Shown in pieces: positions 621-63,468 of a stretch of DNA of 64,000 bases. The first letter of the stretch is position 1. The number at the start of each line of letters is the position of its first letter. The translations under genes were made by a program, and so were the position numbers. Location: the NCBI GenBank assembly GCA_028278125.1, contig JANQEY010000074.1, positions 1 to 64,000 of the forward strand, read 5' to 3'. Below the pieces are notes generated by a model. It did not search any database. It saw only the letters and a program-made list of their open reading frames with translations, and was not told where the DNA came from. The DNA is from a bacterium (lineage in GTDB: Bacteria; Electryoneota; Electryoneia; Electryoneales; Electryoneaceae).

Positions 621-1814
621 TTACTCTTCCTCTTCCTCATCCTGAGCGAAGAAGATGTATGGATTATCCCGCGGGAAAGCCACCATCTCAGGAACTGGCT
701 CCAGGCCAACTGCTTCCAGGAAGTTGCCCATACCGACACGCTGGATAAACTCACCGATACGTTCACGGCTTTTACCCTCTTCACACCAGACATCCTGGAT
801 CTCTTCAATGATGTCACAGAATTCATCGAATTCTTCTTCGTCATCAATGTTGAGGAAAGGAATAAGAACACTGGAGAGTAACGCGCCTTCAACGATAGGA
901 GCTTTTGAACCGATAAGGACAATGGCACCCTTTTCATCACCAGGACGGAGCGCTTTTGTCATTACATTGATGCAATGCATACAGCGACGGCAATCGTTAT
1001 TGTCAATTTCAAGCTTTCCGTCAGTATACTTCATACATTTTGACGGGCAATTGAGAACAACATCGTTAACTATATCAAGTCCACCGTCAGCATAGTTTTT
1101 AACTTCAGCGTCATCAACTTTGATATCATCTTTCCAAGTCCCGATAACGGAAATGTCAGCACGTGCAATTGAAGCTACACAATCATTCGGGCAGCCGGAG
1201 AATTTAAATTTCCATTTGTACGGGAATGCCGGACGATGAAGCTCATCCTGATAGCGCATTGTGATGTCGTAGCAAACCTTAAGTGTGTCGTACATAGACC
1301 ACTCACAACGTCCCGGACCGACACAGCAACTAGGGGTACGCACATCTGATCCTGAACCACCAAGGTCAAATCCAGCCTCGGTCAGTTCTGAAAATGTAGG
1401 TTCGAGTTCATCGGTTGTTGTACCGAGGAAAATGATGTCACCGGTTGATCCATGCATGTTGGTCAAACCACTACCATGCTTTTCCCAGATATCACACAGG
1501 CTGCGGAGTGCATCGGAAGTGTAAAACCATCCTGAAGGCTGGTTTACACGTATAGTGTGGAAATGGGAAATATCCGGGTATTTTTCCGGCAGGTCTGTGT
1601 AACGGCCAATTACACCACCACCATATCCCATAACGCCAACGATACCACCATGTTTCCAGTGACCGATCCGTTCATCATAGGACTGTTCAAGAAGCCCAAG
1701 AAGATCGTTCGACATGGCGTTGTTTTTCGCAGCCAGCTTAATTTCCTTGACGAAACTCGGCCAGGGTCCCTTCTCCAGTTCGTCAAGCATAGGTGTTTTG
1801 TACTCCTTTGGCAT
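621..1814 (-). CDS. dsrA: Dissimilatory sulfite reductase alpha subunit DsrA
   Basis: A 397-residue DsrA. It shows the N-terminal [10 protein letters not shown] motif, [22 protein letters not shown], the siroheme/[4Fe-4S] cysteines C-V-G-P-G-R-C-E and G-C-P-N-D-C, and an inserted ferredoxin domain with C-P-S-K-C and C-R-R-C-M-H-C-I-N. The end N-P-Y-I-F-F is typical of the family. It is shorter than the roughly 420-437 residues usual for DsrA: compared with Desulfovibrio-type sequences from memory, a loop near residue 30 and one before the ferredoxin domain are missing, while all visible cofactor ligands are kept. AGGAGG precedes the ATG. It is followed by dsrB as one transcription unit. The tail is an acidic run of glutamates. 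Confidence 0.96.
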
Positions 1815-26044: not shown

Positions 26045-27820
26045 TTATTTCAGATACAACACTTTGCCGCAAGCTCTACCCATATTTGATGAAATATTCA
26101 CCAGGTATATACCACTTGAAAGATTCACCGGTGTCCAGGTTACTCGACTGTATCCCGGTAGTACACCTGCCAGTTCCTCTGAATAAACCAACCGGCCATC
26201 TATTGAATACCAGTTAATGTTCAGATCTCCAGCCACAGGAACAGATATCTCCACTTCAACAGTCGGATTAAATGGATTCGGATAGATTTTATTTATCCCG
26301 AAATGCCCTGGTACTGATGTTCGTAAATTATCTTCAACACCTACAAAATCAACGACTAGCGGGTACGGAGCATAAAAATATTGGTCGGGAAAGAAAAAAT
26401 CGTCTATCTGTGCACATAGATAGTACGTGTTATCATTTATAAAATTGTTGGTGATTGTCCAATTAAACGAATCCTCTCCATTTATAACAGGTAGTCCATA
26501 TCCACTTGGAATCCAAGCTCCCATAGAATCGAATGGCGGCGTTTCATAGAAAAAACTGATAGTTGCATCCTCATCTTCGGAAGAATTGTATGCTACAAAT
26601 TGTACATTCAAAACCGTTCCTGGTTCTGTAACAATAACTTCTTCAGAGTTGAAAGTCACATAATTCATCCACGGCGGAATTTGAGCCTGGTTTATATAAA
26701 CCGTATCAATCCTGACATTATTACTGTCACTCCACTCATCCACCAGGCTGTCCGCATCAAGAACCACCGCAAACGACATGTAGCCGGTATCCTGCGGTAC
26801 ATATGTCATAGCAAACAGTGTATCGTGAAATATACCATCAATTGAGGTAGGCCATTGATAGGTAATTGTATCCTGCGGTAAATCCCAAATATGGATATCG
26901 TCATCGAGGTTATCGTCAATATAAATCATATGATTTACTTCCGTCTCAGGATCAAGCCCACGAACTAAAAAATCTATCCTGAACCTGATTGGATCGTCCA
27001 CATGAAGTTCATAATATTCCCATCCAATATTTTCAGCATCCATATACCTAAGATCATAGAGGTTAAAGTCAAAAATCCCATCATCATATCCTATACTAAA
27101 GTCATCGACCACGATACCGTAATCAATTGGATTTGGTGGAGGACCACCACGCATGATGTTGTTGGACATGAAGTAGAGCGCAATATAGGTTTCATTCCTT
27201 TGATGAAGCACCATCTCGTCATCGTAAAAAGGCATGTAACTTACAGAGTCGCCGGCAGAATCAAGATCCGCGAAATTCCATGTTGTGTACCACCACATAC
27301 CACCTGTTGATCCTTCCTCGAAGAAAAAAGCGGTACAGCAATCTTCCATCGTCCCGAGGTTGTCCACGTTGTCGGTAACCAACAGCCGGAAATCATCACC
27401 CTCTCCCTCATCGTATGGTTCATAGTTTCCCCAGAAATAAAATATACCTCCAGGTTCATACATATCCTCGGTAATGAGCATTGGACCCCAGACAGCCCAC
27501 GAATTCAAATTTTCCGGGTATGAGTCTTCTCCAGCAACCAAATCATTTGGAAGTCCCGCACACCAAATTGCCCTGGTTTGATCTGGGTGTCCAACGTGCC
27601 AGATTGTATCGGTTTCTTTGCCCCATGTATGTAATGGACCAGGTCCTGGTAGCCAGGGCAAACAGGACCATCCAGTTTCCAATCCTCTTCTCTCACCTGT
27701 TGACCATGGCCATGCCACTTCAGTCACTTCGAAATTCTCATAAATTATACTATGCCAAAAGGCGTGTGAAGCCCCACAAAGCGCCAGTACAAGCAGAACA
27801 CAAATCAGAGCAGCTCTCAT
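26045..27820 (-). CDS. Secreted T9SS cargo protein, tandem paralog 1
   Basis: 591 residues: signal peptide (to about 20), a jellyroll-like N-terminal domain of about 230 residues (N-F-E-V-T-E-V-A-W-P-W-S-T-G, then I-V-V-D-D-F-S-I-G, resembling choice-of-anchor/MAM-like beta-sandwiches), a CARDB-like domain around residues 245-370 (S-D-S-N-N-V-R-I-D-T), a second beta domain and a T9SS type A sorting domain at the end (Y-P-N-P-F-N-P-T, S-S-G-I-Y-L-V-N, final K-V-L-Y-L-K). It is highly similar to the genes at 28015 and 30563. A role at the cell surface, perhaps adhesion or carbohydrate binding, is inferred from the folds. Confidence 0.8.
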   Translation of the reverse strand: MRAALICVLLVLALCGASHAFWHSIIYENFEVTEVAWPWSTGERRGLETGWSCLPWLPGPGPLHTWGKETDTIWHVGHPDQTRAIWCAGLPNDLVAGEDSYPENLNSWAVWGPMLITEDMYEPGGIFYFWGNYEPYDEGEGDDFRLLVTDNVDNLGTMEDCCTAFFFEEGSTGGMWWYTTWNFADLDSAGDSVSYMPFYDDEMVLHQRNETYIALYFMSNNIMRGGPPPNPIDYGIVVDDFSIGYDDGIFDFNLYDLRYMDAENIGWEYYELHVDDPIRFRIDFLVRGLDPETEVNHMIYIDDNLDDDIHIWDLPQDTITYQWPTSIDGIFHDTLFAMTYVPQDTGYMSFAVVLDADSLVDEWSDSNNVRIDTVYINQAQIPPWMNYVTFNSEEVIVTEPGTVLNVQFVAYNSSEDEDATISFFYETPPFDSMGAWIPSGYGLPVINGEDSFNWTITNNFINDNTYYLCAQIDDFFFPDQYFYAPYPLVVDFVGVEDNLRTSVPGHFGINKIYPNPFNPTVEVEISVPVAGDLNINWYSIDGRLVYSEELAGVLPGYSRVTWTPVNLSSGIYLVNISSNMGRACGKVLYLK

Positions 27821-28014: not shown

Positions 28015-29790
28015 TTATTTCAGATACAACACTTTGCCGACATCTCTACCCATGTTTGATGAAATGTTCACCAGGTATATACCACTTGAAAGATTCACCG
28101 GTGTCCAGGTTACTCGGCTGTATCCCGGTTGTACACCTGCCAGTTCCTCTGTATAAACCAAGCGGCCATCTATTGAATACCAGTAAACGTTCAAATCTCC
28201 AACCTCTGGTACGGCGATCTCCACTTCAACGGTTGGATTGAATGGATTAGGAAAGATCTTATTTATTCCAAATTGCACTGGTACTGATGTTCTAAGATTA
28301 TCTTCAACACTTACAAAATCAACGACTAGCGGGTACGGAGCATAAAAATATTGGTCGGCATGATAAAAATCATCAACCTGAGCGTAAAGATAGTATGTAC
28401 TATCATCCAAATACTGGTTAGTTATTGTCCAATTGAATGAATCCTCGCCATTAATCACCGGTAGTCCATAACCACTTGGAATCCATGTTCCTAATGTGTC
28501 GAACGGGGGAGTTTCAAAGAAGAAGTTAATTGTTGCAGCCTCATAATCCGGTGAATTATATGCTTCAAAATGAACTTCTAAAACCGTGTCAGGATTGGTA
28601 ACTGAAACTTGTTCGGTACCGAAAGTAATAAAATTCATCCACGGTGAAAGCTGTGCACCATTAATATAGACCGTATCTATTTTCACGTTATTTGAATCGC
28701 TACGTTCTTCAACAAGGCTGTCCGCATCCAGTGCAACTGCAAACGATATGTACCCGGTATCCTGCGGAAGATAGGTCATAGTGAACAGTGTATCATAGGT
28801 AATCCCATATCTTGAAGTGGGCCAATGGTATGTGATCGTATCTTGTGGTAAATCCCAGATATGTATATCATCATCGAGATTTTCGTCGATGTAAATCACG
28901 TGGTTTACTTCCATTCCCGGATCCGGTCCACTAGCTTCAAAATCTATCTTGAACCTGATGGGATCATTTACATGAAGCTGAAAATATTCCCATGATATGT
29001 TATCAGCATCCATGTATTTGAAATTAATCAAGTCAAAATCGAACAAACCATCAAACTCACCGACACTGAAATCATCAACAACAATACCGTAATCAAGGGG
29101 ATCAGGCGGAGGTCCGCCACGAGTATTATCGTTGGACTTAAAATAGAGAGCTATATAGGTTTCATCACGTTGATGGAGCACCATCTCATCATCATAAAAA
29201 GGCATATAACTGACTGAGTCACCTGCTGAATCCAGATCAGCGAAGTTCCATTCAGCGTTCCACCATGATCCACCAGTGGTTCCCTGGGCAAAGAAAAAAG
29301 CTGTGCAGCAATTTTCCATCGTTCCCAGATTATCCTCGTTGTCAGTTACCAGCAGACGAAAATCATCACCAGCTCCCTCGTTATAGGGTTCAAGGCTACC
29401 CCAGAAATAAAAAACTCCACCAGCTTCTACCATATCCTCAGTTAAAAGAACCGGACCCCAGACTGCCCAGGCATTCATATCTTCAGGGTATGTATCAACT
29501 CCTGCTTCCCGATCATTGGGAAGGCCTGCGCACCAGATAGCCCGGTAGTATCCAGGAATCCCAACGCGGTAGACAGTACTGTCTTCTTTGCCCCAAGTAT
29601 GATCTTCATCAGGACCAGGTGGCCAGGGTATACAAAACCATTCAGTTGGCCTGCCATCAATAATACCTGTTGACCACGGCCAGTCCAGGTTAGACTCTTC
29701 AAAATTCTCATTGAAATTTAATTGTCCGATGGCAGTGAAAGGACCACCTGCCATTAAGACCAACAGTAAACAAATCGCAGCAACTCTCAT
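28015..29790 (-). CDS. Secreted T9SS cargo protein, tandem paralog 2
   Basis: 591 residues, same length and architecture as the gene at 26045: signal peptide, jellyroll-like domain with the W-P-W-S-T-G and E-N-C-C-T-A-F-F-F blocks, CARDB-like domain, beta domain, T9SS type A domain ending K-V-L-Y-L-K. The similarity extends into the flanking intergenic DNA, so the unit was duplicated together with its promoter. GGGAGACAAA precedes the ATG. Differences are spread over the whole length, which fits divergence under selection rather than a very recent copy. Confidence 0.8.
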   Translation of the reverse strand: MRVAAICLLLVLMAGGPFTAIGQLNFNENFEESNLDWPWSTGIIDGRPTEWFCIPWPPGPDEDHTWGKEDSTVYRVGIPGYYRAIWCAGLPNDREAGVDTYPEDMNAWAVWGPVLLTEDMVEAGGVFYFWGSLEPYNEGAGDDFRLLVTDNEDNLGTMENCCTAFFFAQGTTGGSWWNAEWNFADLDSAGDSVSYMPFYDDEMVLHQRDETYIALYFKSNDNTRGGPPPDPLDYGIVVDDFSVGEFDGLFDFDLINFKYMDADNISWEYFQLHVNDPIRFKIDFEASGPDPGMEVNHVIYIDENLDDDIHIWDLPQDTITYHWPTSRYGITYDTLFTMTYLPQDTGYISFAVALDADSLVEERSDSNNVKIDTVYINGAQLSPWMNFITFGTEQVSVTNPDTVLEVHFEAYNSPDYEAATINFFFETPPFDTLGTWIPSGYGLPVINGEDSFNWTITNQYLDDSTYYLYAQVDDFYHADQYFYAPYPLVVDFVSVEDNLRTSVPVQFGINKIFPNPFNPTVEVEIAVPEVGDLNVYWYSIDGRLVYTEELAGVQPGYSRVTWTPVNLSSGIYLVNISSNMGRDVGKVLYLK

Positions 29791-30562: not shown

Positions 30563-32359
30563 TTACTTGAGGTAGAGAACCTTACTGGTGGCGTTACCCA
30601 TTTGAGAAGATACTCTCAGCAGGTACATTCCACTGGAAAGATTATCCGGTGTCCAGGTTAATCTCCTGTAGCCGGGTTGTACACCCTGTATTGATTCAGA
30701 ATGCACCAACCTTCCTTCAAGTGAGTACCAGGAGACGTTGAGGTCACCAGCTTGAGGAACCGCTATCTCCACTTCAACTGTCGGGTTGAATGGATTAGGA
30801 TACACGCTCTCAATACCAAATTTTTCCGGTACTGCCGCCAGGTCATTATATCCTTCACTTATATCATCATGATCAACAATCAATGGGAATGGAGCATAAA
30901 AATATTGGCTCGGGAAGAAAAAATCATCAACCTGGGCATAGAGGTTGTATTCCGCATTACTATAGTCTTCGTTGATAGTCCAGCTGAATGAATCCGGACC
31001 GTTCAGCACCGGCAGATAATATCCACTCTGAATCCATGTTCCTAATGTGTCGAACGGCTCGAAATCATAGAAGAAACTGATTGAGGCACCTTCAAGCTCT
31101 GGAGAATTGTATGCCTCGAAGTTAACCTCTATAATTGTTTCAAAGGTATCAACAATTATCGCTTCAGTGCTGAAAGTAAAGAAGTTCATCCATGGTGCAA
31201 GCTGAGCCTGGTTAATGTAAACGGTATCGATCTTGATGTTGTTACTATCGCTCCACTCTTCTGCCAGGCTGTCGGAATCCAACGCTATTGCAAACGACAT
31301 GTACCCGGTATCCTGTGGCACATAAGTCATAGGGAAAAGTGTATCGTGTACAACTCCATACCGCGAAGTAGGCCACTGGAAGGTTACTGTATCCTGTGGT
31401 AAATCCCAGATGTGCACATCATCATCGAGGTTATCATCAATATAGATCACATGGTTTACTTCAACCTCCGGATCGGGCCCACGAGCTTCGAAGTCTATCC
31501 TCAACCTTATGGGATCGTTGACATGTAACTCGTAATACTCGCGAGATATGTCATCCGCTTCCATGTAGCGTAGATCATAGAGGTCAAAGTCGAACAAACC
31601 ATCATCAAACCCGACACTGAAGTCATCCACCACGATACCAAAGTCTAAAGGTGCAGGTGGAGGTCCACCACGTTCGAAGTTATTAGACATGAAATAGAGA
31701 CAAATATATGTTTCATCTCGTTCATGGAGAACCATTTCATCATCGTAGAACGGCATATAACTGACCGAGTCTCCTGCCGAATCCAAGTCAGCATAGTTCC
31801 ACTCGGCATTCCACCAGAGTCCACCGGTTGTTCCCTGTCCGAAGAAGAACGCCTCGCAGCAGTCCTCCATGTTGCCAATATTGTCCTCATTGTCCGTGAC
31901 CAGCAGGCGGAAATCGTCGCCGGCACCCTCCTGGTACAGCTCAATGCTACCCCAGAAATAGAAGACTCCCCCGGCTTCCTGCATATCCTCGGTAACCAGG
32001 TATGGACCCCAACAGGCCCAGGAATTCATGTTCTCCGGGTATGTATCAACACCTGGCTCCCTGTCATTTGGGAGACCGGCACACCAGATTGCCCGGTAAT
32101 ATCCCGGTACACCAACCCGGTAGACAGTACTGTCTTCCTTACCCCAGGTGTGCCACGGTCCGGGACCGGGAGGCCACGGTAAACAGAACCATTCTGTTGT
32201 CCTGTTCTCAATAATGCCTGTACTCCAGGGCCAGGCGACATCGCTCTCTTCATATGTCTCGTTAAATGATGTATGCCAGAAAGCATTCACATTCCCAAAC
32301 GCCACCATTACCAGCAGAATAACAAGACACAGAAGACAGGATTTTTTCTGCAAATTCAT
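30563..32359 (-). CDS. Secreted T9SS cargo protein, tandem paralog 3
   Basis: 598 residues, same architecture as the genes at 26045 and 28015: signal peptide (hydrophobic L-C-L-V-I-L-L-V-M-V-A-F-G), jellyroll-like domain (S-D-V-A-W-P-W-S-T-G, D-C-C-E-A-F-F-F), CARDB-like domain, beta domain, T9SS type A domain (Y-P-N-P-F-N-P-T, final K-V-L-Y-L-K). The conserved paired cysteines in the D/N-C-C motif may form a disulfide or bind metal. GGGGAGGAG precedes the ATG. It lies 126 bp downstream of the selenoprotein pair and may share their transcript. Confidence 0.8.
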   Translation of the reverse strand: MNLQKKSCLLCLVILLVMVAFGNVNAFWHTSFNETYEESDVAWPWSTGIIENRTTEWFCLPWPPGPGPWHTWGKEDSTVYRVGVPGYYRAIWCAGLPNDREPGVDTYPENMNSWACWGPYLVTEDMQEAGGVFYFWGSIELYQEGAGDDFRLLVTDNEDNIGNMEDCCEAFFFGQGTTGGLWWNAEWNYADLDSAGDSVSYMPFYDDEMVLHERDETYICLYFMSNNFERGGPPPAPLDFGIVVDDFSVGFDDGLFDFDLYDLRYMEADDISREYYELHVNDPIRLRIDFEARGPDPEVEVNHVIYIDDNLDDDVHIWDLPQDTVTFQWPTSRYGVVHDTLFPMTYVPQDTGYMSFAIALDSDSLAEEWSDSNNIKIDTVYINQAQLAPWMNFFTFSTEAIIVDTFETIIEVNFEAYNSPELEGASISFFYDFEPFDTLGTWIQSGYYLPVLNGPDSFSWTINEDYSNAEYNLYAQVDDFFFPSQYFYAPFPLIVDHDDISEGYNDLAAVPEKFGIESVYPNPFNPTVEVEIAVPQAGDLNVSWYSLEGRLVHSESIQGVQPGYRRLTWTPDNLSSGMYLLRVSSQMGNATSKVLYLK

Positions 32360-32485: not shown

Positions 32486-34531
32486 TTATTTCAGTAACAG
32501 CATTTTCCGAGTTTCGGCAAAACTCTGGCTTTCACCGGTCGCCGAAAGACGGTAAAAATATACACCACTGGCTGAATTATCAGCATTCCATGTGAAGTTG
32601 TGATGTCCGGCCTGGTAAGCCCCATCCGCCAACCTGGCCACTTCACGGCCTGTAATATCGAATATAGTTAATATAATACGAGAATTAGCCGGAAGCGAAA
32701 GAGAAATCTCTGTTGAGGGATTAAAGGGGTTCGGATAATTCTGATGCAATTGGTATTTTTCAGGCAGGGAATTGCCTGCTAAATCGTCATCTACACCATC
32801 ATAATCCCATGTGGTCATATAATCCAGCACTCCACGCATCAGTGCAGTTCGATCTTCAGCTGTCGCTATGGCTTCAAATGGGAAACCTGTCAGGAAAGTC
32901 CGGTAGTTCTCACCTTCATTGCGAATAGCTGCCCGGCGGATATTGTCTGCATATTTCATGCAGGTAACCCCGTTTCCGAATTCGTCGATGTAGCATGGAA
33001 CTCTAAGGTTATCTGCACCATCACCACCGACAAGGTCAAACTCCAGGTCACCGGTTACAGGATCATCACCAAGACTGTATACGTGGGTATTATCCTCGTC
33101 GTTATAATAACTTTCGTAACTTGCGCCCATCATATTCATCAATTGAGTCGCCCATAATTCATGAGCCATGTCGCTGCCGCTCATGAAGAGGTTGCCACCC
33201 ATATTCAGGTAGTCTACAAGTCCGTTTGTTACAGTGGTATCAAGTTCTCCACCATCACCCAGGTACCAGATGACCATTTCAATATCCGAGAGAAGCAGAT
33301 CATCCATGTTCAGGGGATGAGGAGTCTCTTCCCAGATTCCATAACTGACAAGATCATCTGTTTCAATCGCTGCATTTATAGCGCTGGTGAAGTATTCAGA
33401 GTAGAGACCTTCCGGATCTCCATTAACGATCAACACCTGCTCTTGTGCTGATGTCTGGGCGAAGAATGAGAACTCAAACGTGTTTTCAGGATCTCCCTGT
33501 GATGTAACTGTGATCGAAAATTCACCATTTTCATTGGCAACATCACCGGGTATCAGTGATACGGTGCTGGTGTATTCTCCCAGGGGATCAAGAGCGATAG
33601 TTGAGTTACCGGTCTGTTCACCATCAGGAGTTGTATACATTATACTCCAACCGTCCGGCAATCCATCGGTATTAACCGTTATATCAAGGACATCGTCCAA
33701 TATTCCCAAGTTTATCAGGCCTATGGTGTATGTACTAGTCTCACCCGGATCAACAAGGTGGGTTGTATTGCCACCCTGCCACGCATCAAAGTCGTAGAGT
33801 GGGGTCATCTGGACAACCGCCGCCTGCGCGACTGACTGGGTCAGGTCATTCTGGACAAATGCCACCACCTTAACGTTTTCCTGGACAAGGTCTTCACCGT
33901 TAAACTCTATAGGCCAGTCATGAGTAACGGTAAACGTCTCGGTATCATTCTGATCCAGGTCAACTGTAAAACCATCCGGATCAGGGACAAATTCCAACAG
34001 GTCGCTGTACCAGTCATCAATTGCTGCACCATCCCAATAGATGTACCCAGTAAGAAGCGCTATCCTGAGAGTGTGGTTATCACCGATTATCACATCTTCG
34101 GTTGAAACTACAACGTCAGCAATCAGTTCATCACCATCAACATAGGCGGTAAGATCAATCGCACATGGCGCAGCCTGGGCGACACGGTTATTATAAGCCT
34201 CATTTAAACTGGCTGCATTAAAACCTTCATATAACAATGTCCCATCTACAACCAGTGTGGGTGTTACACCCATGTCATAATAGGTAGACCATCTAGCTAC
34301 ATGATGAGCACCCATGTGATCTGTCCATGGATCTGTTCCAGCATGGTATACAATTACTGCAACTTCTGCTTCATGTAATTCTTCAAAGTTGTGTAAAGCC
34401 TGTCCCGCAGGCCCACACGGTCCTCAAGTATGTTGTGTTAACTCTTCGAAGAGGACAATACGGGGGAACGCATGCAACGATCCAACCAGCAAACCAACTA
34501 TGGCCAAACCGACAGCAACTTTTTTCAACAT
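32486..34531 (-). CDS. Predicted selenoprotein: secreted Omp28/thioredoxin-like protein with UGPC site and T9SS sorting domain (copy 1)
   Basis: 681 residues if the in-frame TGA at 34426-34424 (codon 36) is read as selenocysteine. From the ATG at 34531 (AAGGGAAAG upstream) come a clean signal peptide (M-L-K-K-V ... S-L-H-A), then V-L-F-E-E-L-T-Q-H-T-U-G-P-C-G-P-A, a thioredoxin-like redox site with Sec replacing the first Cys. A helix and strand follow, and a T-P-T-L cis-Pro loop at residue 91, as in Omp28-like thioredoxin folds. Next are a beta-sandwich, a glutamine-amidotransferase-like domain (V-L-I-V-N-G-D-P-E-G, G-G-N-L-F-M-S-G) and a T9SS type A domain. Conventional calling from 34315 loses the signal and redox site. 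A plain nonsense mutation is unlikely because the neighbour has the same TGA. It follows the second copy by 27 bp. Confidence 0.85.
34391..34426 (-). promoter_or_regulatory. bSECIS-like stem-loop after the TGA of copy 1
   Basis: Immediately 3' of the TGA (34426-34424) the mRNA can form GTGTGGGCCTG / CAGGCTTTACAC with loop CGGGA; two G-T pairs and a bulged T are in the lower stem. The G-rich apical loop begins about 16 nt after the TGA, within the range described for bacterial SECIS elements. Confidence 0.7.
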
Positions 34532-34558
34532 GTCTTTCCCTTTCGTTCACAATCCTGT

Positions 34559-36595
34559 TTATTTCAATAGCAGCATTTTCCTGATGCTATCAAAACTTCC
34601 GTATTCACCAGTCGCTGTAATCTTGTAGAAATACATGCCCGAAGTTGCGTCTTCAGCGTCCCAGGTGACACTATGATAACCCGGCTCCATAGATTGGTTA
34701 GCCAGAACAGCTATTTCCCTTCCCATTACATCAAAGACGGTTAATGTTACCTGCGCCATCTCCGGAAGAGAAAATGCTATATCTGTCGTTGGATTAAATG
34801 GATTTGGATAGTTCTGGTACAGTGTAAATGACTCAGGGATAACATTCTCAAGTCCTGCCTCCGGTGTTGAGAGTATATCCAGGTCGGTAAGATAACCAAG
34901 AATTCCCAGCATTAACTGGTTACGTCCATCCTCTGTAGCGATGGCTTCAAATGGGAATCCCATAATATATGTTTTGTATGTATCGGTTTCGTTCCTGATT
35001 GCAGCCCTGCGGACATTTGTATACATCAGGCTGGCAACACCATCACCTGCGATTACCATTGAGCTTGGTTGACGACGGTTATTTGCCCCATCGCCACCTT
35101 CAATATCAACATCAAGATCGCCGGATATAGGATCATCGTCATCGGGACTGAATACATTGTCTCCATCGGCGTAATGACTCTGGAAACCGGCACCCATCAT
35201 CCCAAGCAAAGGATATAGTGACATATGATCAGGGGCATCAGTGCCGCTGATACAAAGGTTTCCACCAGCGCTAAGGTAATCCTGGAGAGCAGTAGCTTCT
35301 GCAGCTTCAATAGTACCGCCATCACCCAGGTACCACAGCACGAGATCGATATCCGCAGCTGCCAGGTCTTCGGTGTTTAGAACATAATCAGCTTCTGGCC
35401 AGACACCATAAGCACTAGCCGCATCCAGTTCGGTTGCGGCATCCATGGCGTTTGTATAATAGGCGCTATAAGCTCCTGCCGGATCACCATTTACTACAAG
35501 CACAGGACTGGCATTCTGGACATAAAGATCAAATTCATAAACCGGGGCAACATCAGAACCCTGTGAACTGATATTGAAGCTGATAATTCCACTCGCTCCT
35601 TCAGAAGCGTCAGTTTCAAGTGTTAAGACACTGGTGAAATCTTCAAATGAAGCGACTGCGATGCTGGAGTTACCATATTCTACACCATCCGGCGTAGTAT
35701 ATGAGAAATTCCATCCTACGGGAAGACCGTCAGTGTTTACTTCTATATCATAAACATCATCTTCCGTTCCGATGTTCAGGAAAAATACTTCAAAAGTCGC
35801 ACTTTCTTCAGGATTAACAAGATGTGCCTGGTTGTCTACAGTTGCCAAATAATAATATGGTGGTGCTCCCATTCCTGATAACGCTGCCTGGCGTACTTCC
35901 TGGTCCGCATCATTCTGAACAAAAGCCACAACTGAGACATTGTCTTCTTCCAGGTCCTCGTCGTTAAAATTGATAGGCCAGGGGAATGTCACATTAAATT
36001 CTTGTGTACTGTTGGCTGCGATATCTACGTCCAAACCGTCCGGATCAGGTGAGAATTCCAGTAAACTGTGATACCAGTGTTGGATAAAGGTACCGTACCA
36101 TTGAATATAGTTTGACACCAGTGCGAAGCGAATTTTATGATTGCCACCAATCGCTTCATCGCCTGTTGTTACAATGGCAGTGACATCAATCTCATCTCCT
36201 ATATTCATAGGTATGAGTTCTATACTGCATGGGCTTTCAATATCAATCCTGGTATCAAAAGCGCTGCTTAGATCTGCTTCACCAAAGCCTACATGCCTGA
36301 TGGTACCGTCTACATCCACTGTTGGAGTAAACTGAACCCCGTAATAATTATGCCAGCGTTCCTGGTGGTGTGCACCGTTGTATTGCGTCCAGGGATCGTT
36401 ACCCGCATGGTAAACAATCACCGCTGTTTCATCTGCATTGTTTTCGTGAAACTCGTGTAGGGCCTCCGCCGCAGGCCCACAACTTCCTCAAGTATGTTGT
36501 GTAGTCTCTTCAAAGAGAACTACTCGGGGGAAAGCATAAAGGGAGGCAGTAACTAGGAATAATACTACAACAAAAATCGGTAACCGTTTAATCAT
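34559..36595 (-). CDS. Predicted selenoprotein: secreted Omp28/thioredoxin-like protein with UGSC site and T9SS sorting domain (copy 2)
   Basis: 678 residues with the TGA at 36490-36488 (codon 36) as selenocysteine. AGGAGG precedes the ATG at 36595. Signal peptide (I-F-V-V-V-L-F-L-V-T-A-S-L-Y-A), then V-L-F-E-E-T-T-Q-H-T-U-G-S-C-G-P-A, with the cis-Pro loop T-P-T-V at residue 91. Sec, Cys and Pro are at exactly the same positions as in copy 1. The remaining domains also match: a beta-sandwich, an amidotransferase-like domain (V-L-V-V-N-G-D-P-A-G, G-G-N-L-C-I-S-G) and a T9SS type A domain (Y-P-N-P-F-N-P-T, final M-L-L-L-K). Probably exported, folded in the periplasm and surface-anchored. It is the first gene of the pair. 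Selenocysteine machinery (selA, selB, selC, selD) is not in the window. Confidence 0.85.
36456..36490 (-). promoter_or_regulatory. bSECIS-like stem-loop after the TGA of copy 2
   Basis: TGT-GGGCCT pairs with AGGCCC-(T)-ACA around loop GCGGCGG; the loop starts 16 nt after the TGA at 36490-36488. Compared with copy 1 the same stem is kept, G-T wobbles there being G-C pairs here, with the bulged T in the same place. Confidence 0.7.
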
Positions 36596-36835
36596 CAGAT
36601 CCTCCTGTCCACAAAGATTTGTCAATGTACCTCGTTTTACTTTAAGTCCTAATCATTTAAAATACATACTATACCTGCAGGTTCACAAGTCAGTATCGCT
36701 AAATAAAATACCCGCTTCTCAAATTTTGATTTCGCCGTAACCATTTTTAATTCCATATTTTGCTTATATTAACAACATCTATACGATAAAAAATTCTGAT
36801 TTTGGATAACGTCTGGGAAACAAAAATAAAACTTA

Positions 36836-60683: not shown

Positions 60684-60773
60684 TCTCTATTAGTCCATTT
60701 GGATCTATCTAAAGTCGTTCGAGATTTCTCGAATGTGTATCTCGAAACAATTTCAAAGCATGGAGATCAGATT

Positions 60774-62981
60774 GTGATATATTTAAAAAGTCGGATATTA
60801 AAGACAAATCTCCTTTTATTAATAATGATGCTGATATCTTTTTCAGCATCAGCAGCGACTATCACGGGCAAAGTTCTGGATGATTACGGTTATCCTCTTG
60901 GTGGGGTGAATGTCATTCTCGATGGCACAAATCAAGGCGCCGCATCGAACATTAATGGCACATACAAGATCGAAAATGTCGAAGCAGGAAAATATCTACT
61001 TCGTGTTTCGCTTGTCGGGTATACCACGATTGAAAAACCAGTCGAAATTCCCGCGGGAACAGGTGAGATTTTAAATATTGAAGAAATTAAACTTGCCGTT
61101 GATCCGGTTGCTCTTGAAGAATTGATGTTCAAGCTCCAGGCAATGGACTCCAGGATTGATGCTGACGCGATGGTAAGGAAGGAAGTTGTCTCATCAGAAG
61201 ACATGCAAAGTTCTACACAGGATGGCGGAGTATTATCCGCCCTGTCAAAGAAGACCGGCTTGAATACCCGTCCCTGTGCCTTATGTGGATCAGCGGGAAT
61301 TGGAATGCAGGGGCTTGATCCATCCTATACTGAAATAAATGTGGATGGGATGCCTGTCCTCTCGGGACTTGGCTCACTCTACGGATTAGACGGTGTTGCT
61401 GTTTCCGATGTTTCGCAGGTTGAGTATGTGAAGGGGAGTTCATCAAGTGAATTCGGCGCAGGCGCGGTTGCCGGTGGTGTTGACCTGGTTACGATGTCAG
61501 CACAATCAAAACCCGCCTATCGTTTTCGAATTTCAGGTGGAACAACGGGAAGGCATACTGTTTCAATCGGTGTTCAAAAACCTACAGGAAAATTATCAAA
61601 CCGGATCTCGTTAACCTATTCAGGCGAGCCTGTCAAAATTGACGAGAATGGTGACCGCCTGACCGATACTCCCCAGTACAGCAGGTTCAATGCCGGTTAC
61701 AACGCACAACTCCCCATTAAAACCGGCACCATTTCCGGCAATTTCAGGGGATATGGAGAACGCAGGTTTGCTGGCGACGTGGATTGGACAAAAGACAGCC
61801 GGGGCAGTGAATCGGTTTATGGGCGAGAGATTTTCACAAATCGCGGTGAGGTCTCTTTCCGGTACGCTCATAATCCTGCTTCCTGGGGTAACTGGTCAAT
61901 CGAGTCATCAAATGTATTTCACCAGCAGGATTCCTGGTACGGCTCAACCGAGTTCGACGCAACCCAGGTAAAATCCATCAGCCGGTTATCAATAAACCGT
62001 CGCTGGAACGTCCTCAACTCAACATTACTGCAGGGATTGTATACATACGAGGAATACAGGGATAACCTTGAGCTTGAAAACGAAACAAACAGAATAGATA
62101 ATATCCCTGGAGTAATGATTCAACACACCTGGATTCCTTCAACAACCTGGACCCTCCAGGGCGGGATTCGTTCGGAGATTTACCAGGAAGACGGATTTGT
62201 TCCAACATTCAGAGGATCGGCACTTTTTAATCCGACAAAAGCATGGGGATTTCGTTTATCAGGTGGAACAGGATACCGTCCTGTTACAATCTTCAGTCTT
62301 GATAAAGCCGTACATGCCGGTTTCGACAATGTTATTGTCCCCAATGAGCTCGAACCTGAAAGAAGCATAAACGGTTCCCTGAATGTTAATTATCGCACAG
62401 CCTCACCTCGAAGTTCTTTCCAGGTTGATCTCAACGGTTTTTATACCGTCTTTGAAAACAAGGCGATTCTCGCTTACGGGCACCATGAGGGCACGACCGA
62501 GTACTCGAACGCTGAGGAGGCTTTCAGCAGGGGATTCGAATTGCAGCTAACCTGGAGTCACCATCCCGGTTGGACTCTCGGCTTGGGCGGAACGGTTACG
62601 GACGTCCAGTACAAGAACGAATCAGGCTGGCATTTCACGGAGATGCAAAACAAGTATACTGCAGATGCGTCATTATTAAAAGAATGGGCCTTACCACAAA
62701 TTTCTGCGGAAATACGTGCGAATCTTTATGGTCCACAGGCACTTCCCGAGGGAAGATCACGTTCGGATTCTCCGGTTTATACTATCTTCAGTACCGGGAT
62801 CAGCAAAAAGTTTAACGGATTAACATTAGCATTGAACGTTGAGAACCTGACAGACTGGACACAACCAGACGATCCATTTGTGTTTATCCCGGGAACAGAC
62901 GCGAGTTTCATCGATTCAGCAATGATCTATGGACCGATGCTGGGAAGAACATTCCAGGCAAGTATCGATTACAATTTTTAA
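60774..62981 (+). CDS. TonB-dependent receptor, putative metal/metal-complex uptake
   Basis: About 735 residues. The signal peptide (I-M-M-L-I-S-F-S-A-S-A) is followed by a carboxypeptidase-like domain (T-I-T-G-K-V-L-D-D-Y-G-Y-P-L-G-G-V-N-V), then a plug with R-P-C-A-L-C-G-S-A-G-I-G-M-Q-G-L and V-D-G-M-P-V-L-S-G-L-G, and a 22-strand-type barrel. The plug's C-x-x-C and Met residues suggest a soft-metal ligand. The GTG at 60774 with GGAG upstream is given as start because it begins right before the signal; a TTG at 60699 would add a poor leader. Flanked by the Cys-rich protein and the YHS-like gene. Barrel ends with Phe. Confidence 0.85.
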   Translation: MIYLKSRILKTNLLLLIMMLISFSASAATITGKVLDDYGYPLGGVNVILDGTNQGAASNINGTYKIENVEAGKYLLRVSLVGYTTIEKPVEIPAGTGEILNIEEIKLAVDPVALEELMFKLQAMDSRIDADAMVRKEVVSSEDMQSSTQDGGVLSALSKKTGLNTRPCALCGSAGIGMQGLDPSYTEINVDGMPVLSGLGSLYGLDGVAVSDVSQVEYVKGSSSSEFGAGAVAGGVDLVTMSAQSKPAYRFRISGGTTGRHTVSIGVQKPTGKLSNRISLTYSGEPVKIDENGDRLTDTPQYSRFNAGYNAQLPIKTGTISGNFRGYGERRFAGDVDWTKDSRGSESVYGREIFTNRGEVSFRYAHNPASWGNWSIESSNVFHQQDSWYGSTEFDATQVKSISRLSINRRWNVLNSTLLQGLYTYEEYRDNLELENETNRIDNIPGVMIQHTWIPSTTWTLQGGIRSEIYQEDGFVPTFRGSALFNPTKAWGFRLSGGTGYRPVTIFSLDKAVHAGFDNVIVPNELEPERSINGSLNVNYRTASPRSSFQVDLNGFYTVFENKAILAYGHHEGTTEYSNAEEAFSRGFELQLTWSHHPGWTLGLGGTVTDVQYKNESGWHFTEMQNKYTADASLLKEWALPQISAEIRANLYGPQALPEGRSRSDSPVYTIFSTGISKKFNGLTLALNVENLTDWTQPDDPFVFIPGTDASFIDSAMIYGPMLGRTFQASIDYNF

Positions 62982-63003
62982 TAGCTCTTAGAAGGAAAAT
63001 ATC

Positions 63004-63468
63004 ATGAAATTCAAAAGCAGTATAGTATTCCTGTTGTTGATCTTTTTATCATTTTCACTTTCAACGATTTGTGCTCAGGAACAGGCTAGTTCATCTTCCA
63101 TCCAGGAAGGCAATATCTGGTTCACAGAGGACAGCACCAAGTATTTTACCTGCCCGGTGATGAAGGGCGAAATGAAAGTTTCACACGCTTTTGCCTACAG
63201 TGATATCGAAAACGTCCGCTATTACCATTGTTGCCCACCTTGCCAGGGACCTTTTCGAGCTGAGACGGAGAAATTCCTCGATGAGCTAAAGCTTCCGGCT
63301 AATGTTTCCAGCGTAGATGAAATGGGAAATAAAACATTTCGCGATCCGATTTCGGGGAAAGAATTTATCCATGCGAGCGCGAAAGATTCTCTCGATGTCG
63401 AAGGGTACAGGTATTATTTCCATAAAAAGAAAAACAAAAAGAAATTCATCGCTCATAGCGATTTATAG
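63004..63468 (+). CDS. Secreted YHS-like metal-binding protein
   Basis: 154 residues: signal peptide (to about 24, I-C-A-Q), then two short metal-binding units: Y-F-T-C-P-V-M-K-G-E-M with Y-Y-H-C-C-P-P-C-Q-G-P-F (YHS-like), and F-R-D-P-I-S-G-K-E-F-I with Y-R-Y-Y-F. The C-terminus is lysine-rich. YHS domains are found in copper and heavy-metal resistance proteins. It follows the receptor by 22 bp, so the three genes 60306-63468 form a probable metal module. Confidence 0.75.
   Translation: MKFKSSIVFLLLIFLSFSLSTICAQEQASSSSIQEGNIWFTEDSTKYFTCPVMKGEMKVSHAFAYSDIENVRYYHCCPPCQGPFRAETEKFLDELKLPANVSSVDEMGNKTFRDPISGKEFIHASAKDSLDVEGYRYYFHKKKNKKKFIAHSDL

Follow-up and report, generated by a model that had tools for sequence, protein, structure and literature searches.

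Predicted tandem selenoproteins with a UxxC active site and a type IX sorting domain in the Electryoneota

The window analysed here is a 64,000-nucleotide stretch of contig JANQEY010000074.1 (GenBank assembly GCA_028278125.1) from a bacterium of the Electryoneota. On its minus strand lie two tandem genes, here called A and B, each of which contains an in-frame TGA at codon 36. We read this codon as selenocysteine (Sec), in which case the gene products are likely secreted selenoproteins of the thioredoxin type, with UxxC at the active site. Sequence comparison strongly supports the selenocysteine reading, and we give the whole interpretation a probability of about 0.9. It draws on the frames of the two genes, the exchange of TGA for Cys in their relatives, a covarying hairpin downstream of the TGA and the presence of selenocysteine genes in related genomes.

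Two tandem genes with an in-frame TGA

The genes and the elements near their 5' ends are as follows:

34559..36595, minus strand: gene A, ATG at 36595, 678 residues with the TGA read as Sec36
32486..34531, minus strand: gene B, ATG at 34531, 681 residues with the TGA read as Sec36
36488..36490, minus strand: predicted Sec codon of gene A, TGA at codon 36, UGSC
34424..34426, minus strand: predicted Sec codon of gene B, TGA at codon 36, UGPC
36601..36606, minus strand: AGGAGG ribosome-binding site of gene A as read from the sequence, six to eleven bases 5' of the A in the ATG

The two genes are arranged head to tail. Each frame, read directly from the DNA, has exactly one in-frame TGA, in the context TQHT-TGA-GSCGPA in gene A and TQHT-TGA-GPCGPA in gene B, and the remainder is open when this codon is taken as Sec. 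The ribosome-binding site of gene B is weaker than the AGGAGG of gene A. The proteins are 49% identical and agree at position 36, Gly37, Cys39 and Pro91; in a six-row family alignment, position 36 (Sec or Cys), Cys39 and Pro91 were invariant. These results bear out an earlier, sequence-only reading of the window, which had proposed a start and ribosome-binding site for each gene, an open frame beyond the TGA at codon 36, and Cys39 and Pro91 at the same positions in both paralogs. That reading had also argued that the pair was not decaying. Upstream of the TGA, codons 21–35 of the two genes include 9 identical codons, 4 synonymous and 2 non-synonymous differences, a pattern more in keeping with coding sequence than with decay.

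A mechanical scan of the window produced 25 candidates for TGA read-through. By eye, recognisable conservation on both sides of the codon was present only in genes A and B, and none of the remaining 23 was convincing. An Rfam scan at gathering thresholds and ARAGORN gave no matches across the window, and viral contigs searched with six peptide patterns from gene B gave none either.

TGA and Cys at codon 36 in relatives

Homolog searches with the whole protein were swamped by the C-terminal tail, a type IX secretion system (T9SS) sorting domain, and were repeated without it. The tail-less search returned ten proteins outside the window, with 34–39% identity. Four of these reach site 36, where they have CPPC, CSPC, CGPC and CNPC; the remaining six have their starts downstream of it, and P0015 (in locus L004), the one among them whose DNA was viewed, has TGA at that position. 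A search with alignment A4 returned six proteins, including the window's own; among the new ones, the best (P0023) has CGPC at the site, and none of the six is called a selenoprotein in its source record. Scanning GTDB genomes yielded 28 loci, with four clear relatives across the N-terminal part. Candidatus Electryonea clarkiae has a CPPC copy as well as a TGA (UGFC) copy, and TGA also occurs in two more bacteria, as UGPC and UGFC.

We then searched 39 genomes from the phylum of Candidatus Electryonea with a profile, which matched in 38 of them (94 rows at E 1e-20 or better). Of these rows, 78 extend to the N-terminus and were kept, while the 16 whose match begins at profile position 60 or beyond were excluded. 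The codon 36 column of these 78 relatives, in which the exchange can be seen directly, holds TGA in 23, Cys in 53, Asp in one (L076) and Ser in one (L140), and no match contains a further in-frame stop. The sequence-only reading had named orthologs with Cys at codon 36 as the check on its proposal; relatives with Cys there do exist, and the TGA stands where it had been placed, at the catalytic first Cys of a CxxC motif in a modelled thioredoxin-Omp28 fold. Cys is found at +3 in 22 of the 23 TGA rows. One relative (L146, genome G034) reads UGPNC, which would move the resolving Cys to +4.

In a tree of the 78 relatives and the window pair, built with the site masked, genes A and B were sisters with a Shimodaira–Hasegawa approximate likelihood-ratio (SH-aLRT) support of 99, inside an eight-row set with TGA in seven of the eight rows. 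The TGA and Cys states require at least eight changes on this tree by a quick method, indicating that they have switched several times. The prolyl-tRNA synthetase encoded in the window is 76% identical to that of E. clarkiae (G001), and the window organism therefore belongs with these phylum genomes. Neighbours of the pair match loci L001–L004 mainly via the sorting tail, apart from one longer match at 23% identity in L003, and no conserved gene neighbourhood was seen between the window and these four loci.

Standard gene calling treats the TGA as a true stop: it finds only the downstream open reading frames (ORFs), of 620 (A) and 609 (B) residues, and the protein database records of the window genes (P0003 and P0012) are these shorter forms. 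Translation would then restart at GTG 36421 and ATG 34315, and the leader would be decaying or form a separate peptide. However, these starts truncate the thioredoxin domain and drop both the signal peptide and the active site, full-length relatives with Cys at the site exist, and 23 of the 78 relatives keep TGA at exactly codon 36 without any other stop; together with the conserved codons upstream of the TGA, this leaves a true stop very improbable. A reassigned code, in which TGA specifies an ordinary amino acid (Trp or Gly) without selenium, would also keep the frames open, since they are open whichever residue the codon encodes. Yet TGA terminates 10 of the 44 ORFs that were accepted as genes in the window, which shows that the code is not reassigned; each frame has a single TGA; and the exchange in relatives is between TGA and Cys, not Trp or Gly. 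We give this explanation hardly any weight. Reassignment, decay and downstream starts were accordingly rejected on stop usage, Cys exchange and upstream conservation, in favour of selenocysteine.

A hairpin downstream of the TGA

A candidate selenocysteine insertion sequence (SECIS) follows the TGA in both genes:

36460..36478, minus strand: predicted SECIS hairpin of gene A, columns 13–31 of alignment A5, 7 of 8 pairs with one G–G mismatch, borderline under strict stem-loop rules
34396..34414, minus strand: predicted SECIS hairpin of gene B, columns 13–31 of alignment A5, 7 of 8 pairs form

Nine sequences, including both window genes, were aligned without gaps after the TGA. The consensus predicted from them is a hairpin of eight pairs, closed by a loop of three bases (GGC or GTC; GGG in gene B) that begins 17 bases past the TGA. 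In this register 94.4% of the cells pair, compared to 28–54% in slid registers. The covariation is visible in the alignment itself, with both-sided (compensatory) changes in six of the eight pairs, and none of 500 shuffles reached any of five hairpin measures. The mean fold energy was −16.5 kcal/mol for all 25 TGA genes (the 23 relatives plus the window pair) and −12.1 kcal/mol for a comparison set of 55 non-TGA genes. Six other TGA genes (L094, L098, L099, L102, L103 and L109) have a different stem, whose loop is of the GAUCC/GACCC type and lies 18 bases from the TGA.

The published model of the bacterial element (bSECIS) has a stem of 4–16 bp, a loop of 3–9 nt with a G in its first two positions, a location 16–37 nt after the UGA and a minimum free energy of −7.5 or lower (PMC13188914). 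Gene B agrees with this rule (7 pairs, loop CGGGA, 16 nt, −14.3 kcal/mol over 50 nt). Gene A folds at −18.5 kcal/mol with 7 of 8 pairs in the family register, and its spacing is 17 with the closing C–G pair or 15 without it.

Selenocysteine machinery in related genomes

Among the 39 phylum genomes, SelB was found above cut-off in 33, SelA in 34 and tRNA-Sec in 32. SelB is present in each of the 13 genomes that carry a TGA member, and the six genomes that lack SelB have no such member.

Seven of the genomes (G013, G014, G016, G017, G018, G038 and G039; loci L152–L165) have two SelB each above cut-off. When 39 of the 40 SelB rows were placed on a quick tree, the two copies of G013, G014, G016, G017 and G018 separated into two distinct clades with full support. 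Two SelA are present in G013–G018, G038 and G039, and two tRNA-Sec in G013–G018 and G025; the six TGA members with the GAUCC/GACCC-type loop belong to G014, G015, G017 and G018. Given the duplicated genes and the second type of hairpin, two parallel Sec systems in these genomes are conceivable.

Several observations weigh against the selenocysteine reading. The nine hairpin sequences were picked from the 25 TGA genes for a common register, which favours the structure. In gene A, the G–G mismatch adjoins the loop, and with this mismatch open the loop would begin 15 bases after the TGA, just outside the published range; a strict stem-loop rule found no element in this gene, and a looser rule only a 5-pair stem elsewhere. 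Under the looser rule, four TGA genes (L114, L123, L126 and L135) had no good stem, and a 6-pair stem was present in 21 of the 55 non-TGA genes vs. 17 of the 25 TGA genes. The closest Cys relative (L072) retains six of the eight hairpin pairs. At site 36 itself, two relatives have neither TGA nor Cys, as noted above. The association between TGA members and SelB is statistically weak (13/33 vs. 0/6, about 0.07 by our own arithmetic) because SelB is near-universal in these genomes, and one TGA genome (G024) had no tRNA-Sec at the threshold used. Finally, we infer the machinery of the host from its kin genomes.

Domains and predicted structure

The proteins were divided into the following parts:

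36533..36595, minus strand: hydrophobic leader of gene A, residues 1–21, likely a signal peptide judging from its sequence
34469..34531, minus strand: hydrophobic leader of gene B, residues 1–21, likely a signal peptide from sequence and a low-confidence modelled helix at 3–15
35864..36532, minus strand: thioredoxin-Omp28 unit of gene A, residues 22–244, from the alignment to B and an Omp28 Pfam match just below cut-off
33800..34468, minus strand: thioredoxin-Omp28 unit of gene B, residues 22–244
34871..35503, minus strand: GATase1/ThuA-like domain of gene A, approximate and alignment-based
32807..33439, minus strand: GATase1/ThuA-like domain of gene B, residues 365–575
34607..34810, minus strand: T9SS type A sorting domain of gene A, residues 596–663, PF18962 33.5 bits, TIGR04183 33
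32522..32737, minus strand: T9SS type A sorting domain of gene B, residues 599–670, PF18962 31.4 bits (599–668), TIGR04183 33.6

In the predicted structure, a helix (39–52) follows a strand (26–32) and Pro91 precedes another strand (92–95), consistent with a thioredoxin fold. The Pfam Omp28 model (PF11551) scored 34.5 in A, a near miss, and 17.1 in B, both below the gathering threshold of 34.9. The structure nearest to the thioredoxin-Omp28 unit was the surface thioredoxin HBP35 of Porphyromonas gingivalis (PDB 5y1a), reported to use two Cys (PMC2907840) and 14% identical in the structural alignment. AGR_C_4864 of Agrobacterium (PDB 2axo) was 13% identical, and Pfam DUF1223 was below cut-off in both window proteins. 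A sequence search of the PDB found no useful relatives. The entries that Foldseek listed after HBP35 had query TM-scores of 0.13–0.17 and were mostly transglutaminases and other multi-domain proteins, and the fold assignments rest on a second structural comparison rather than on this list.

The unit is followed by a β-rich, immunoglobulin (Ig)-like middle part, the GATase1-like domain and the T9SS tail. The sequence-only reading had described an amidotransferase-like domain fused to a sorting domain. The sorting domain held up, as both Por_Secre_tail (PF18962, 27 bits) and TIGR04183 (23 bits) exceeded their cut-offs in both proteins, and so did the GATase1-like fold, which matches the class I glutamine amidotransferases. 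Unlike its GATase1-like and ThuA-like counterparts (3rht and 1t0b), however, the domain by eye has no Cys where the catalytic nucleophile is expected, and is thus probably not an amidotransferase. The Pfam ThuA match (E 2.2e-4, residues 365–494) was below cut-off.

Comparison with known selenoproteins

Omp28-related UxxC selenoproteins already have a name, and the impression that the pair was of an undescribed kind therefore did not survive in full. NCBIfam model NF045500 is the Omp28-related selenoprotein, which a 2026 review lists as hypothetical protein GOS_C with UxxC (PMC13188914); the original description of GOS_C, from ocean metagenomes, counts 74 Sec sequences and gives the protein a thioredoxin-like fold (PMC2398784). 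Like this family, the window proteins combine a thioredoxin-like fold with an Omp28 region and UxxC, and have Sec in the same aligned column. BLASTP aligned residues 2–264 of gene B with the NF045500 member L196 at 22% identity, with the active sites aligned to each other. Most rows above the NF045500 cut-off also have TGA, and copies adjoin in some genomes. In genome G164 (contig C23, 6038–13582), from the phylum of Neomarinimicrobiota locus L007, four NF045500 TGA genes lie close together, and neighbouring copies thus occur in the known family too.

What stood was the distance from that family. At 23.8 and 31.5 bits, the window proteins fall far short of the curated NF045500 cut-off of 200, and matches above it were found in 24 of 245 genomes of the L007 phylum vs. 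none of the 39 Electryonea-phylum genomes. NF045500 open frames are mostly about 370–440 residues long, with a few of 545–1177, and two stretches tested (373 and 371 residues) gave only Omp28 in Pfam, without the sorting or GATase1-like domain of the window proteins. A search for NF045500 in eight other genomes gave no match at E 1e-10, but controls were equally silent, making it uninformative. The window genes are distant kin of GOS_C that would work like GOS_C, and are not categorically new, since the latter is a named, distant UxxC family. Closer to hand, an E. clarkiae paralog (P0013, in L001) is equal to them in length (675 residues) and domains but has CPPC for the UGSC/UGPC of the window and no Sec codon; the same genome also holds three TGA members (L071, L075 and L081).

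The selenoproteins might instead be periplasmic, or act within the known GOS_C function, with a tail that is a generic FlgD-like fold rather than a T9SS anchor. Indeed, FlgD_ig also matches the tail, and the GOS_C-type stretches L192 and L196 gave Omp28 alone in Pfam. In contrast, both sorting-domain models exceed their cut-offs, SprA is above cut-off in 35 of the 39 related genomes, and the closest solved fold, HBP35, is described as secreted by the Por system (PMC3120885). We consider this alternative unlikely, though worth keeping in mind; for the window proteins, export to the surface, anchoring and an enzymatic role are all predicted.

Other genes in the window

Directly downstream of the Sec genes are three tandem paralogs of 591–598 residues on the minus strand (26045–27820, 28015–29790 and 30563–32359); the one tested in Pfam gave a T9SS sorting domain only. 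A sulfite/nitrite reductase protein (NIR_SIR) that appears DsrA-like by eye is located at 621–1814 (minus), in agreement with reports of sulfate-reducing Electryoneota lineages (PMC10439189). At 60699–63468 (plus), a protein that resembles a TonB receptor by eye precedes a small one with a metal-related look, which has CPVM and CCPPC motifs and gave no match in Pfam.

Discussion

By the mechanism that we infer, SelB carrying Sec-tRNA-Sec would read the hairpin, nine spacer bases behind the TGA, and Sec would be inserted instead of a stop. The signal peptide would export the chain, and the C-terminal sorting domain would direct it across the outer membrane through the type IX system. On the surface, Sec36 and Cys39 could act as a selenenylsulfide/dithiol pair in the reduction or exchange of disulfides or sulfur compounds, with the Ig-like middle part and the GATase1-like domain as possible spacer and binding module. 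A wider picture is tentative, and we would put it somewhat short of even odds: a phylum-wide set of T9SS-secreted surface thioredoxins with repeated Sec/Cys swaps, forming a selenium-based layer of disulfide or sulfur exchange on the outer surface, in which the GATase1-like module holds the substrate. Within the one collection of papers searched, selenoprotein combined with type IX secretion returned a single paper, on rabbit diet, and combined with Omp28 or Electryonea it returned none.

Standard gene calling starts behind the TGA and loses the active site, and a selenoprotein family of an uncultured phylum has in this way been overlooked. If the reading is true, selenocysteine would be carried to the cell surface by T9SS cargo, and the 23 TGA vs. 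53 Cys members would form a natural series on why a secreted enzyme retains or loses selenium.
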